Positions 23,279 through 30,276 of a stretch of 64,000 nt of DNA are shown here, in pieces; positions within the stretch are counted from its first letter, which is position 1; the number at the start of each line of letters is the position of its first letter. Both the position numbers and the translations under genes were made by a program. Under the pieces are notes generated by a model. The model searched no databases, was not told the origin of the DNA, and saw only the letters and a program-made list of their open reading frames with translations. This DNA is from Thermoleptolyngbya sichuanensis A183 (GTDB taxonomy: Bacteria > Cyanobacteriota > Cyanobacteriia > Elainellales > Elainellaceae), in contig NZ_CP053661.1 in the NCBI RefSeq assembly GCF_013177315.1, positions 2,604,001 through 2,668,000 on the forward strand, given 5' to 3'.

Positions 23279-24541
23279 TTATCCAAACACACTGCCAAAA
23301 AACTCGATCGCCTCCTTCAGCGACGCAATGAAGGTGTCGATTTCTTCCTTGGTGTTGTAAAAGTAAAGGCTGGCGCGGGCAGTGGATTGGGCTTTGACCT
23401 CACGGTGCAGCGGCTGGGTGCAGTGGTGTCCGGCGCGGATGGCGATGCCTGCCTGGTCAAGAATGGTGGACAGGTCGTGGGGATGCACCGCGCCCGTAGT
23501 AAAGGCGGCCAGGGCAGCGTGGCCTTCACCACGGACATCGGGCTGGGGGCCGTAGGTGCGGACTTCGGGCAGTTCCGCCAGCCGCTGGAACAGGTAGGCG
23601 GTGAGGTCGGCTTCGTAGGCGTGAATTTTGTCCATGCCGATGGCGCTTAGGTAATCGACGGCCGCACCGAGGGCGATCGCCTCTGCAATGGCCGGCGTTC
23701 CCGCCTCAAATTTGTGGGGAATGTCAGCATAGGTGGCGTGGTCGAGGAACACATCGGCAATCATCTCGCCGCCCCCCAAAAACGGCGGCATTGCCCGCAG
23801 CACCTCCTTCTTGCCGTAGAGGAAACCAATGCCCGTAGGCGCACACATCTTGTGGCCCGAAGCCACCAGCCAGTCGCAATCCATCGCCTGCACGTCAATC
23901 GGCGTGTGGGGAACGCTCTGGCAGGCATCGATCAGCACCTTCGCGCCGACCCGATGGGCAGCGGCGGTGATGTCCGTCACAGGGTTGATGCAGCCCAGCG
24001 TGTTAGACACATGCACCACCGACACTAGCCTGGTTTTGTCCGACAGCAGCGATTGGTAATGCTCGAAGTCAAACTCCTCCGTCTCCGTCAGCCGCACAAA
24101 CTTCAGCACTGCCCCGGTCTTTTGCGCCACCAGTTGCCAGGGAATCAGGTTGCTGTGGTGTTCCATCACCGTCAGGATGATTTCGTCCCCCGGTTGCAGC
24201 GTGTTCATGCCCCAAGCGTAGGCAACGAGGTTGATGGCTTCGCTGGCATTGCGCGTGTAAATGATTTCTTCGCGTTGGGCGGCGTTCACAAACCGCTGCA
24301 CCTTATCTCGCGCCCCCTCGTAGGCATCGGTGGCCAGCCCGCTGAGGGTATGCACGCCGCGATGCACGTTGGAGTTATAGCGTTTGTAATAGTCCTCCAG
24401 CGCATTCAGCACCGCCAGCGGCTTTTGCGACGTGGCGGCGTTGTCAAAGTAAACCAGCGGCTTCCCGTGAATGTCCTGTTGCAGGATGGGGAAGTCGGCG
24501 CGGACTTTGGTAGCAAGGGTGCGTTCTTGGGCGAGGGTCAT
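23279..24541 (-). CDS. sufS: Cysteine desulfurase SufS
   Basis: A 420-residue group II cysteine desulfurase. The PLP Lys is in [12 protein letters not shown], the aminotransferase-like N-terminus contains [12 protein letters not shown], and the active-site Cys374 is in [10 protein letters not shown] with the short loop typical of SufS. It releases sulfur from cysteine as a persulfide for Fe-S cluster assembly on SufBCD. It follows sufD after 29 bases. The start ATG at 24541 gives [14 protein letters not shown], a normal N-terminus. Confidence 0.97.
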
Positions 24542-24570: not shown

Positions 24571-25926
24571 CTAGGAGTTTGGGCAAAAGAGGGGTGAGGA
24601 GGCAAGCGACTCCCGCAGCGAGGCAATGGGAATCTTCTCTAAAATTTCGTAGGCAAAGGCGTATATCAGCAACTGCTGGGCGCTGGCGGCATCAATACCC
24701 CGGCTTTGCAGGTAAAATACTTCGTCGGCCTCAAGCTGGCTAACGGTTGCGCCGTGGGTGCATTTTACGTTGTCGGCGACGATTTCAAGCTGGGGCTTGG
24801 TGTCAATCCGCGCTTTGGACGACAGCAGCAAGTTGCGGTTCAATTGTCCAGCATCGGTAAGCTGCGCGGCTTGCGGCACGAAGACTTTGCCGTTGAAGAT
24901 GACATGAGCGCGATCGCCCACGATGTTTTTCTGCAACTGGCGCGTGGTGCAGTGGGGCTGGCGGAGGGCGATCGCGCTGTGCAGGTCGCTTTCCTGGTCG
25001 CCCGTGGCCACGGTCAGTCCGTTTAGCGTCACCTCGGCCTGGTCGCCCGTGGGATGCACCTCTAGGTGATGGCGCGACAGGGCTGCCCCCAGGCTGAGGG
25101 CATTGCAGGTGTATCGGGCGCTGCGCTTCAGGGAGACGGCGGTTTTGCCAATGTGAACCGCGGTTCGGCTGTCGCGCTGGAGGCGGGTGTGGTTCACCGA
25201 GGCGTTGTCGCCCAGCCAGATTTCGGTAACAGGGTTGACGAAGTAAGAATCGTCGGCTCCGTCGGCGATCGCCAGATAATCTTCCAGCAGCGTGATCGAG
25301 CTATTCGCCTCGGCGATCACCAGCACGCGGGGCTGGCTGAAGGTCGGCGGGTCTGCTGCGGTGGAGACAAACAACAGCCGAATCGGTTCTGCGGCTTCCA
25401 CGTTCTTGGGCACAAACACAACCGCCACATCGCTCAAGCCAGCAGTGTTCAGCGTGGTAAATAGCTCCTCGGCGTTGGGCTGCTGCGCCAGGTAAGGCTG
25501 GAGTCGTTCTGTCCAAGCAGCATCCAGCCCTGCCAAGTTGGCCACCGTCACGCCCGATGGCAAGTCTCCCAGCGCCGACAGGCTCTCGGAATACACGCCG
25601 TTGACGAAGACTAGGCGGCGGCTGGCGGTTTCCGGCATGAAAAACGCTTCTAGGTCATCCAGCTGAACAACGGGGTTCGTCTCAGCCGTCGTCAGCTTCA
25701 GGCTAAGCAGCGCCGACAAGTCGTTGAACCGCCATTCCTCATCGCGGTTAGTCGGAAACTCCTGCTCCTGAAGCTGACCCAGAGCGCGATTCCGCAGTGG
25801 CTCTAGGGATGCAATCCGAGACGGAATCGCCTGCGCCAACTGCCGCAAGTGCTGAAGAAACTCGGCCCGCAGAGCAGCAGCCTGTGATATGGGTGTATTC
25901 ACCTCTGGGGAAACTTGGACTGTCAT
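24571..25926 (-). CDS. sufD: Fe-S cluster assembly protein SufD
   Basis: SufD is the partner of SufB in the SufBC2D scaffold. The sequence has LFVNGVYSESLS, a long right-handed parallel beta-helix region and the C-terminal signature KCTHGATVSQLEADEVFYLQ followed by SRGID. I start it at the ATG at 25926 (451 residues, MTVQVSPEVNTP), because AGGGGG lies just upstream on the minus strand and sufC ends 14 bases before it. A longer frame to 25974 would overlap sufC. Confidence 0.95.
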   Translation of the reverse strand: MTVQVSPEVNTPISQAAALRAEFLQHLRQLAQAIPSRIASLEPLRNRALGQLQEQEFPTNRDEEWRFNDLSALLSLKLTTAETNPVVQLDDLEAFFMPETASRRLVFVNGVYSESLSALGDLPSGVTVANLAGLDAAWTERLQPYLAQQPNAEELFTTLNTAGLSDVAVVFVPKNVEAAEPIRLLFVSTAADPPTFSQPRVLVIAEANSSITLLEDYLAIADGADDSYFVNPVTEIWLGDNASVNHTRLQRDSRTAVHIGKTAVSLKRSARYTCNALSLGAALSRHHLEVHPTGDQAEVTLNGLTVATGDQESDLHSAIALRQPHCTTRQLQKNIVGDRAHVIFNGKVFVPQAAQLTDAGQLNRNLLLSSKARIDTKPQLEIVADNVKCTHGATVSQLEADEVFYLQSRGIDAASAQQLLIYAFAYEILEKIPIASLRESLASSPLFCPNS

Positions 25927-25940
25927 CGTGCGATCGCCCC

Positions 25941-26720
25941 CTATGCCTTCACCGTCGCGTCTTCCAGCACCCACTCATAGCCGCGCTCCTCTAGCTCCAG
26001 CGCCAGTTCCTTCGTGCCGGTGCGGATAATTCGACCATTCGCCATCACATGCACATAGTCGGGCACGATGTAGTTCAGCAGGCGTTGATAGTGCGTAATC
26101 ACCAGCATGGCGTTCTCAGCGTTCGCAAGCTGGTTTACGCCATCCGCCACCACCTTCAGCGCGTCAATGTCCAGTCCCGAATCCGTTTCGTCTAAAATCG
26201 CCAGCTTCGGCTCCAGCAGGGCCATTTGCAGGATTTCGTTGCGCTTCTTCTCGCCACCCGAAAAGCCCTCGTTCACGCTGCGGCTGAGAAAAGATGCGTC
26301 CATCTTTACTACGTCCAGCTTTTCGCGCACCAGTTCGTCGAAATCAAAGGCATCCAGTTCTTCTAGCCCCTGGTGCTTGCGCTTGGCGTTGTAGGCGACG
26401 CGCAAAAAGTCCAGATTGCTCACACCGGGAATCTCCAGCGGATACTGGAAAGCGAGGAAAATACCAGAGCGCGATCGCGCTTCAGGTTCCATCTCCAGCA
26501 AATTCTGCCCCAGGTAAATCACCTCGCCACCCGTTACTTCATAGTCCGGATGTCCAGCAACCACCTTAGAAAAGGTGCTTTTTCCAGAGCCATTCAGCCC
26601 CATAATGGCGTGAATTTCGCCCGCCCGAATTTCCAAATCCACACCCTTCAGAATCTCCGTGCCGTCCACCTCAGCCCTGAGATCCTTCACCGATAAAATC
26701 ACATCGTTACTACCAATCAT
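25941..26720 (-). CDS. sufC: Fe-S cluster assembly ATPase SufC
   Basis: A 259-residue ABC-type ATPase with Walker A GLNGSGKS (41-48), the family signature [12 protein letters not shown] and Walker [17 protein letters not shown]. SufC drives conformational changes of the SufBC2D complex; it has no membrane partner. It is followed by sufD 14 bases later. Upstream, between it and sufB, lie a 14-bp tandem repeat and a nuclease-like gene, which is not the usual sufBC arrangement. Confidence 0.97.
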
Positions 26721-26853: not shown

Positions 26854-27498
26854 TCAGAGTTGTCCAATTCGCTTCAGAACTTTGTAAGCATCATAAATTC
26901 CATTGACTCGGTTTCGGGTCGCAAACTGGTCAGACAACGCATACTGAGTCTGTTTTTCTTCAAGAGAATCTATACCGCCACGCCGGACAAGCTTCACAAA
27001 CAAAAAAGCACCGCCTGTCGCAATCAATCCAAAGCACGACCTATCGGAATTGAGACTCGCCAGCATGTAGGTAAGAAGCTGCGCCAATCCTACCTCGGGC
27101 GCAAAAGAAAACTCTTTAGACTCGATGACCAGCGTCCAAAACTGTTCCTTCAGCAGTAAGACATCAATTTGTCCCTTCACGACTAAGCCGTCATCTTCTG
27201 CCGAAATCTCTACAGATTTCTCAGCCCGAATATGGAATGGGGGTAGATAAAAGCCAGCCAAAAAGAGCATGGGCCCAAGCACTGCCATCTGCACCGCTCT
27301 CTCCAAAAAGGGAGGACTTTCGAGCAGATTCAGACATCCTGCACGCAACCGATCTAGAAATTGCCGCTCAGATTCTGTGATTTCTGGTAAATCAACTCTC
27401 CATTCCCAGAAAAATGACTCATCCTCAACTAACGACAACCCAAAGTTGTGAGTCAGCGTTTGCAGGTCAGTTGCTCTAGCTTGGAGAGTTTGCACCAT
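26854..27498 (-). CDS. PD-(D/E)xK nuclease-like protein inside the suf cluster
   Basis: A 214-residue protein. GQIDVLLLKEQFWTLVIESK gives Asp112 and Glu126-Ser-Lys128 on adjacent strands, the PD-(D/E)xK nuclease core. The overall layout resembles short proteins that cyanobacterial genomes annotate as restriction endonuclease subunit R-like, with no helicase or methylase attached. Its biological role is unknown; it could be a solitary restriction-type nuclease. It sits between sufB and sufC in the same orientation, 20 bases after sufB. The base composition is richer in A+T than the suf genes and there is no HIP1 site, so it was probably inserted. Confidence 0.7.
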   Translation of the reverse strand: MVQTLQARATDLQTLTHNFGLSLVEDESFFWEWRVDLPEITESERQFLDRLRAGCLNLLESPPFLERAVQMAVLGPMLFLAGFYLPPFHIRAEKSVEISAEDDGLVVKGQIDVLLLKEQFWTLVIESKEFSFAPEVGLAQLLTYMLASLNSDRSCFGLIATGGAFLFVKLVRRGGIDSLEEKQTQYALSDQFATRNRVNGIYDAYKVLKRIGQL

Positions 27499-27518: not shown

Positions 27519-28955
27519 CTACCCAACGCTGCCTTCGAGCTTTAGCGCCAAGAGGCGATCGGCCTCCACTGCAAATTCCATCGGCAGTTGGTTAAACACG
27601 TCCTTGCAGAAGCCGCTGATCATCATGGAGATGGCATCCTCAACGGAAATGCCGCGCTGCTGCAAGTAAAATAATTGGTCTTCGCCAATCTTGGACGTAG
27701 ACGCTTCGTGTTCCACCCGTGCCGTGTTATTTTGCACTTGGATATAGGGGAAGGTGTTTGCGCCAGCAGTGTCGCCAATCAGCATCGAGTCACACTGGGA
27801 ATAGTTGCGTGCGCCGTCTGCCTTGGGGCCAATCTTCACCAGCCCGCGATAGCTGTTCTTTGACTTGCCTGCGGAAATGCCCTTGGAAATAATCGTGCTG
27901 CGGGTGTTTTTGCCAACATGCACCATCTTGGTCCCCGTGTCGGCTTGCTGCATGTTGTTGGTCAGGGCAACGGAGTAGAACTCGCCCACGGAGTTATCGC
28001 CCACTAGCACGCAGCTTGGATATTTCCAGGTGATGGCAGACCCCGTTTCGACTTGCGTCCACGAGATCTTGGAATTCACGCCCTGACACAGGCCGCGCTT
28101 CGTCACAAAGTTATAGATGCCGCCCTTGCCGTTTTCGTCTCCGGCGTACCAGTTTTGCACGGTGGAATACTTGATTTCGGCATTGTCCAGTGCGACTAAT
28201 TCCACCACAGCGGCATGGAGTTGGTTCGTATCGAACATCGGCGCGGTACAGCCTTCCAGATAGCTAACGTAGCTGCTTTCTTCTGCGACAATCAGCGTCC
28301 GCTCGAACTGTCCGGATTCACCATTGTTAATCCGGAAGTAGGTCGAAAGCTCCATCGGACAGTGAACGCCCTTGGGAATGTAGACGAACGACCCGTCGGA
28401 AAACACCGCTGAATTGAGTGCAGCAAAGTAATTGTCTGCAACCGGAACAACGCTGCCCAGATACCTCTGAATCAGATCCGGATACTCACGCATCGCTTCC
28501 GAGATCGAGCAGAAGATGACCCCCTCCTTCGCCAGCTTTTCGCGGAAGGTCGTGGCAACTGAAACGCTGTCGAAGATGGCATCCACCGCCACGTTGGACA
28601 GTCGCTTCTGCTCCGAAAGTGGAATGCCCAGCTTTTCAAAGGTTTCCAGCAGCGTCGGATCGACTTCTTCCAGGCTGTTGAGTTTTTTTGCCTGCTTGGG
28701 CGCGGAATAGTAGACGATGCTCTGATAGTCGATCGGCGGATATCCCACCGCAGCCCAGTTGGGTTCCTCCATTTTGAGCCACTGGCGATAGGCCTTGATG
28801 CGAAACTCCAGCATGAATTCTGGCTCGTTCTTTTTAGCAGAGATGAGCCGCACCACGTCTTCGCTTAGCCCACGCGGAATAGTGTCGGACTCAATCTCGG
28901 TGACAAAGCCGTATTTGTAGGGCTGATTTACAAGAGATTTGACAGAGGTAGACAT
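27519..28955 (-). CDS. sufB: Fe-S cluster assembly protein SufB
   Basis: A 478-residue SufB, the cluster-building scaffold subunit. Visible: [53 protein letters not shown], the catalytic-tunnel region [19 protein letters not shown], and the C-terminal [20 protein letters not shown]. The conserved Cys and Glu/His positions appear intact. It is the first suf gene, 180 bases after ftrC. The next gene is a nuclease-like protein rather than sufC. Confidence 0.97.
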
Positions 28956-29135
28956 TTTGAGGGTTAAGGGATTGGGGGTTTGGAGTTGAGGACTAGGCGC
29001 GAAGGGAAGGAATTGGGCACTGACTCAGATTCAGCTTGGAGGAAAGAACCAGTTGAAATAGGGAACCGCATAAGCCAAATGCATCTGTGATGAAATGCTT
29101 CTGCAATGGCTGGTTCGGTTCCCTAGACTTGACTT

Positions 29136-29489
29136 CTAATACTGGCTGGTAACTCCGCGGATTTCGTCGATGCTAATTTCCTGCTTGTCGCCTGCAAAGT
29201 CGTTGTCGGGGGTGAGAAAGAGCATACAGTGACATTCTTTGCGTTCGCGCATGGGGACGCAGGGGCAGTTCCAATAGGCTGCGGCCGCTTCGGCTTCTTT
29301 ATCTTCGTAGTGGCGGCAGGGGCAGAGGGGCGCGCCTAGGTCGTCTTTGTGCTTGGCGAGGCCTTCGATGACCACTGCCGTAACGCCTGGATCAACGCAA
29401 AAGTAGGTGCCAGTGCGCTTTGCGTAGCTTTCTGCGAAGCTCCGCATAAGTTCCAGATTCTTTTCCGAAGCCTGAGTTGGTTTTTCCAT
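29136..29489 (-). CDS. ftrC: Ferredoxin-thioredoxin reductase, catalytic chain
   Basis: A 117-residue protein with the complete pattern of the catalytic subunit: PLCPCRHY (Cys56, Cys58), NCPCVPM (Cys75, Cys77) and KECHCMLF (Cys86, Cys88), plus Cys31. Four of these bind a 4Fe-4S cluster and Cys58/Cys88 form the redox-active disulfide. It passes electrons from photosystem I-reduced ferredoxin to thioredoxin, which switches on Calvin-cycle enzymes and feeds peroxiredoxins. It is the first gene of the minus-strand array leading into sufB, directly beyond two SufR operators. Confidence 0.97.
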   Translation of the reverse strand: MEKPTQASEKNLELMRSFAESYAKRTGTYFCVDPGVTAVVIEGLAKHKDDLGAPLCPCRHYEDKEAEAAAAYWNCPCVPMRERKECHCMLFLTPDNDFAGDKQEISIDEIRGVTSQY

Positions 29490-29531
29490 GAGTAGGGCGA
29501 CAGCGCGAACGATTCATGCCTATAATTAAAA

Positions 29532-29545
29532 CAACTTGAGAGTTG
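29532..29545. promoter_or_regulatory. SufR operator 1 (CAAC-N6-GTTG)
   Basis: CAACTTGAGAGTTG is a perfect example of the CAAC-N6-GTTG palindrome described for SufR of Synechocystis. It is 43 bases from the ftrC start codon. Its TTGAGA, with TGTAAG 17 bases further on, could be the -35/-10 of the sufR promoter, so SufR would block its own transcription. Confidence 0.85.
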
Positions 29546-29555
29546 CTTTAGTTCT

Positions 29556-29561
29556 ATTGTA
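29556..29561 (-). promoter_or_regulatory. Possible -10 box for ftrC/suf transcription
   Basis: On the minus strand the sequence reads TACAAT. Operator 2 would then cover the -35 region and operator 1 would lie just downstream of the start site. The -35 box is poor, so the assignment is tentative. Confidence 0.4.
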
Positions 29562-29573
29562 AGGGTACTTTAG

Positions 29574-29587
29574 CAACACTTCAGTTG
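29574..29587. promoter_or_regulatory. SufR operator 2 (CAAC-N6-GTTG)
   Basis: CAACACTTCAGTTG is a second perfect CAAC-N6-GTTG palindrome, 42 bases (four helical turns) from the first. Such a pair allows two SufR dimers to bind on the same face of the DNA. Confidence 0.85.
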
Positions 29588-29628
29588 TCAAAGTTAATTC
29601 TAAGGCGTTTTGACGCTTTTGAGGGACG

Positions 29629-30276
29629 ATGACCGCAACTCAGCAACCGTCCACCAAGCAAGACATTCTGCATTACCTCGCTAAGCAGGGGCAGGTGAGC
29701 GCTCAGGCTTTGGCAGAGCATTTCGGAATTAGCCCCCAAGCGATACGCCGTCATCTAAAGGATTTGACGGATGAGGGTTTGGTGGAACACGAGGCTATGC
29801 AGGTAGGGATGGGTCGCCCCAACTATCTGTATAGGCTGAGTCGAGAGGGGCGCGATCGCCTGCCTGAGCGCTACGACGAGTTTGCCGTGTCCTTGCTGAC
29901 GACTCTGGCGGAAACCGTCGGCCCCGACCAGATGGGGTCCATTCTTCGCAAGCAGTGGGAACAAAAAGCCCTGGAATATCGCAAGCAGGTCGGTGCGGGC
30001 ACGCTGCAAGAGCGAGTCATGCGGCTGGTTGATCTGCGAAAAGCCGAAGGCTACATGGCCGAGTGGCACTTTGTTGAACCTGAAGACGGGGCAGAGCCGC
30101 AGTTCATTATTACGGAATATAACTGTGCTATTTCGCACATTGCTGAGTCGTTTCCTAGCGTGTGTGGTCATGAGCTAGAAATGTTTGAGATGGCGCTGGG
30201 AGACTGTCGCGTTCAGCGAACGCACTGGTTAGCCAATGGAGAACATCGCTGCGGCTACCTGATTCAGGCGCAGTAG
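29629..30276 (+). CDS. sufR: Iron-sulfur cluster biogenesis repressor SufR
   Basis: A 215-residue regulator. The DeoR-like winged helix lies at about 10-60 (LAKQGQVSAQALAEHFGISP followed by QAIRRHLKDL). The C-terminus has Cys166, Cys179, Cys193 and Cys208 with spacing C-x12-C-x13-C-x14-C, the SufR 4Fe-4S signature. With clusters bound it represses the suf genes; when clusters are lost through iron starvation or oxidative stress the suf genes are released. It is divergent from ftrC-sufB. Two perfect SufR operators lie in the shared upstream region. Confidence 0.97.
   Translation: MTATQQPSTKQDILHYLAKQGQVSAQALAEHFGISPQAIRRHLKDLTDEGLVEHEAMQVGMGRPNYLYRLSREGRDRLPERYDEFAVSLLTTLAETVGPDQMGSILRKQWEQKALEYRKQVGAGTLQERVMRLVDLRKAEGYMAEWHFVEPEDGAEPQFIITEYNCAISHIAESFPSVCGHELEMFEMALGDCRVQRTHWLANGEHRCGYLIQAQ

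Follow-up and report, generated by a model that had tools for sequence, protein, structure and literature searches.

The window analysed here, a 64,000-nucleotide stretch of the Thermoleptolyngbya sichuanensis A183 genome, contains a suf locus in which a regulator gene, sufR (29629..30276, + strand), is divergent from an array on the opposite strand that is led by ftrC (29136..29489, − strand). The sufR product scored 321.9 bits with the TIGR02702 equivalog model (cut-off 178.8 bits), which places it in the SufR family of Fe-S cluster-binding repressors, and its C-terminal cysteines 166, 179, 193 and 208, matched to C164, C171 and C206 of the PCC 6803 protein by position only, are the predicted holders of a [4Fe-4S] cluster. 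The ftrC gene codes for the catalytic chain of ferredoxin-thioredoxin reductase (FTR; PF02943, 149.9 bits), with an exact match to the cysteine pattern CPC-X16-CPC-X8-CHC, and is the single ftrC of this genome (one match in a search of the genome itself). It is followed, all on the − strand, by sufB (27519..28955; TIGR01980, 673 bits, and NF008773, both over cut-off), an uncharacterised open reading frame (ORF) of 214 amino acids (26854..27498; no Pfam or NCBIfam match), sufC (25941..26720; TIGR01978, 360 bits), sufD (24571..25974; TIGR01981, 296.6 bits, over cut-off), the true start of which is probably internal to the ORF, and sufS (23279..24541; TIGR01979, 596 bits, over cut-off). The initial annotation had placed ftrC as the first gene of the array, behind SufR operators, and both the gene identities and the order were confirmed: ftrC comes first and shares its strand with sufB, and the operators lie 5' of ftrC with none before sufB.

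Relatives of the 214-amino-acid ORF are patchily distributed among suf loci and are also present on cyanobacterial plasmids; the plasmid relatives are 51–54% identical, and some relatives are annotated as restriction endonuclease subunit R. The same genome also has a second SufR-like gene (L257:3923-4651; G000:C1:817937-818536) with a TIGR02702 score of 140 bits, below the cut-off of 178.8. It adjoins psb32, a photosystem II repair gene, in an 8-kb stretch with no perfect CAAC-N6-GTTG, and sub-threshold SufR paralogues are likewise present in several other genomes.

An operator pair between sufR and ftrC

The divergent gap between sufR and ftrC holds two perfect matches to the SufR operator CAAC-N6-GTTG, 42 bp apart from start to start, which are predicted operators assigned to neither strand and kept in relatives: an ftrC-proximal site (CAACTTGAGAGTTG, 29532..29545) and an ftrC-distal site (CAACACTTCAGTTG, 29574..29587). 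The distal site forms the core of an extended 28-bp palindrome (ACTTTAGCAACACTTCAGTTGTCAAAGT, 29567..29594, no strand assigned; consensus over 74 loci) of the form ACTTT-N2-CAAC-N6-GTTG-N2-AAAGT, of which there is one copy genome-wide, allowing up to two mismatches. A count of two sites in 64 kb is by itself unremarkable, as two or more perfect sites were obtained in 26 of 100 shuffles (shuffle mean 1.07), and this is the one result that would favour reading the sites as chance matches. The special feature is the pair itself: two sites separated by 20–50 bases occur once in the 5.5-Mb genome and never with a reversed-pattern control (perfect sites genome-wide, 98 versus 57 for the control), and relatives across the class keep the pair in this position, on which grounds a chance origin was rejected and is left with a vanishingly small probability. 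The earlier placement of the two sites, 42 bases apart and between sufR and ftrC rather than between sufR and sufB, was therefore upheld in its coordinates, with the uniqueness of the pair in the genome and its conservation across the class now added.

The arrangement is common among closer relatives. In an FtrC scan of GTDB genomes, from which the best 80 of a larger set were taken and which is hence biased to close relatives, divergent sufR followed by ftrC-sufB was found in 75 of 80 ftrC loci from other genomes, while the five loci of these best 80 without nearby suf genes had no operator upstream of ftrC. Together with the window, the 75 linked loci make up a set of 76. No member of this set lacks a perfect operator in the gap from sufR to ftrC, and 66 of them carry two or more; a pair is present in 74 when one mismatch is allowed, at a spacing of 37–55 bp (mode 40, 37 loci). 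The proximal operator mostly starts 56–91 bases before the ftrC ATG, and in most relatives the distance is about 65–67 bases.

Candidate promoter elements are interleaved with the operators. A putative sufR −10 element (TATAAT, 29521..29526, + strand) stands directly before the proximal operator and was found by a consensus scan (10/12, with GCGACA at −35), and a putative ftrC −10 element (TACAAT, 29554..29559, − strand), read from the sequence, lies between the two operators. Anchoring 74 loci on the operators gave the consensus ACTTTgACAAC-N6-GTTGCTAAAgTA-nn-cTanaat ... gTTAagCAAC-N6-GTTGtTTTAATTaTA. The block TTTAATTATA, which reads TATAATTAAA on the sufR strand, is conserved after the proximal site and would suit a −10 element for sufR immediately ahead of that operator; TACAAT between the operators, of which there are 30 instances over the 74 loci with degenerate forms elsewhere, is the candidate −10 of ftrC.

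The gap between ftrC and sufB

In the 76 linked loci ftrC and sufB have the same orientation and are separated by 19 to 196 bases (median 81), the window gap (28956..29135, − strand) being the second longest at 180 bases. It has no SufR site at up to one mismatch, no terminator-like site and, in a consensus scan, no promoter-like match. Across all 76 gaps (5906 positions) there was no perfect operator, and the two one-mismatch operators equal the chance level (1.9 expected from shuffles). The initial annotation had named a SufR-dependent promoter directly before sufB, along with an ftrC that does not respond to sufR loss, as the observation that would speak against its proposal; a SufR operator in that place was sought and rejected, and since no gap has a perfect operator and terminators are not in excess, nothing of the kind was found at sequence level.

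Terminator-like sites in the same gaps numbered 2 versus 2.45 expected, and a conserved terminator or attenuator was accordingly rejected as well. The window gap does have a hairpin without a U-tract just 3' of ftrC (about 29059–29125; −28.9 kcal/mol, local z −4.5, for a stretch picked by eye), which was not found as a dispersed repeat in the genome and as such is missing from the gap of the nearest relative (L002). It might serve in RNA processing or stability, and with the long gap it means that sufB levels may not follow those of ftrC. Many relatives with either leading gene have a AAGAGAACAC-like stretch in front of sufB, which is missing from the window sufB leader (28956–28985).

The length of the gap, as had been pointed out, leaves room for a second promoter, and room for a SufR-independent one remains. 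According to PMC7058544, which cites Seki et al. (2006), sufBCDS of Synechocystis has two promoters, only one of which is repressed by SufR, and a SufR-independent promoter could therefore exist here too. This precedent, along with the long window gap and the hairpin 3' of ftrC, would suit a locus in which the operators serve only sufR and a monocistronic ftrC and in which sufB to sufS are expressed mainly from their own SufR-independent promoter within the 180 bases. We consider this improbable, because terminators are not in excess, the gaps of 19–60 bases in many relatives offer little space for a separate promoter, and the window gap has no promoter-like match.

Linked and unlinked ftrC across the class

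In a sample of 156 genomes spread evenly over the phylum, the class contributed 65 strong ftrC loci besides the window's own. Of these, 11 are suf-linked, and 10 of the 11 have a perfect operator; the eleventh (L173, family f19) has a diverged SufR. None of the 54 unlinked ftrC loci had a perfect operator within 400 bp upstream. As about 0.4 sites would be expected for 54 loci at the site density of the window genome, this reflects the absence of a functional pattern and not avoidance. One genome (G024) has two ftrC copies, a suf-linked one with an operator (L140) and another without (L121). As judged from these sequences, the link between SufR and ftrC is positional and not a general property of FTR.

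A second sample, centred on SufR, covered 80 genomes of the class, in which the leading gene was ftrC in 45 and sufB in 35. It was suggested at the outset that other genomes of the lineage be checked for the same order, and the order ftrC-sufB is indeed shared, by 75 of the 80 best-matching ftrC loci and by these 45 of 80 SufR loci. A perfect operator precedes the leading gene in 75 of 80 SufR loci, with two in the family f9 loci L181 and L182, as in the window. Three others (L187, L249 and L252) have one-mismatch pairs instead, and in the remaining two (L254 and L255, from G131 and G133; family f19) a search that allowed one mismatch found no CAAC-N6-GTTG ahead of either ftrC or sufB; as their SufR is also diverged, it may read another operator. 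The proximal site lies mostly 62–95 bases from the leading gene in ftrC-first loci and mostly 34–75 bases in sufB-first loci, with a second group of the latter at 115–168. These similar distances suggest that the operators are tied to the sufR side and would control the first gene of the array, be it ftrC or sufB.

On a SufB tree, which is weakly supported and unrooted, the linkage state changes at least nine times, and given the nature of that tree the ancestral state (gain versus loss) was not called.

Proposed SufR control of ftrC and its limits

FTR is a heterodimer, and ftrV codes for the partner subunit of FtrC. In this genome ftrV is located at G000:C1:286419, about 2.3 Mb from ftrC; neither the 900 bp upstream of it nor a 2-kb stretch around it contains a perfect operator, so a rise in FtrC need not raise FTR. 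Thus, while SufR control of ftrC is backed by operators that precede a leading ftrC in a conserved order, the initial annotation is on weaker ground where it extends this control from ftrC to light-driven thiol reduction, the partner gene being distant and operator-free. In Trichodesmium, leaving aside ftrC-suf linkage there, sufRBCDS transcripts fell and FTR transcripts rose when iron was added, the opposite of co-regulation (PMC12090762).

The reading that we favour, with a probability of roughly 0.78, is that ftrC leads a transcription unit repressed by SufR, namely ftrC-sufB-(ORF)-sufC-sufD-sufS. SufR with a [4Fe-4S] cluster would bind both CAAC-N6-GTTG operators, which would flank the ftrC promoter and overlap the promoter of sufR itself, so that both directions would be repressed; loss or reduction of the cluster under iron limitation, oxidative stress or high light would then release ftrC along with the suf genes. 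In this scheme we infer the promoter positions, the read-through from ftrC to sufB and the physiological direction, and by homology the window SufR is expected to act as a repressor of sufR as well as of ftrC-suf.

It is also conceivable, though rather unlikely in our estimate, that ftrC is a passenger, the operators existing for suf and sufR and the leader position having been reached without selection for co-regulation. The absence of operators at all 54 unlinked ftrC loci, the 35 of 80 SufR loci that manage without ftrC, a partner gene outside operator control and the repeated linkage changes on the SufB tree are all in keeping with such a history, but the linked arrangement has lasted in many families with the leader position constant. 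This alternative is compatible with a SufR-repressed ftrC-suf unit, as a passenger ftrC would still be regulated.

Comparison with known systems

The arrangement has precedents. Synechocystis SufR with its [4Fe-4S] cluster binds the motif and represses sufBCDS and itself (Wang 2004 and Shen 2007, as cited in PMC13421787 and PMC7058544). The window resembles Synechocystis sp. PCC 6803 in its divergent sufR and its CAAC-N6-GTTG operator, which is SufR-bound in PCC 6803 according to the same sources, but there sufB (ycf24) lies directly behind the operators with no ftrC between (PMC2662882). A likeness is also found in Synechococcus elongatus PCC 7942/6301, with a divergent sufR and with an ftrC that separates sufB from the intergenic region on the sufR side, as described for Synechococcus 6301 (BMC Genomics 2009, PMC2662882), although the window differs in its extra ORF between sufB and sufC and its longer ftrC-sufB gap. 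For S. elongatus PCC 7942, a recent review (FEMS review 2026, PMC13421787) implicates SufR in ftrC regulation, gives ftrC as co-transcribed with suf and describes the ftrC-suf neighbourhood as common; the main text of Vijayan et al. (2011) names neither suf nor ftrC. The idea of SufR control of ftrC is therefore already known from PCC 7942, and what is added here are the counts, namely the operator position in 76 linked loci, the lack of operators in their gaps and at 54 unlinked ftrC loci, and the two-copy genome G024 as an internal control.

Implications for iron-sulfur and thiol metabolism

Our survey suggests that ftrC and the suf genes are probably switched together in the window, as in roughly half of the SufR-carrying cyanobacterial genomes that were sampled. 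More tentatively, and with rather less than even confidence, there may be two regulatory kinds of cyanobacteria, linked lineages that would derepress the FTR catalytic subunit with cluster assembly upon Fe-S failure and unlinked ones in which SufR would have no hold on FTR; the light-thiol relay would then respond to iron in opposite ways in the two. The linked and unlinked lineages, together with G024 and its one copy of each kind, offer a natural contrast. Should ftrC and suf share a transcript, the Fe-S subunit of FTR would increase under iron or oxidative stress alongside the machinery that builds its cluster, and the thiol activation of carbon fixation would be tied to cluster supply.
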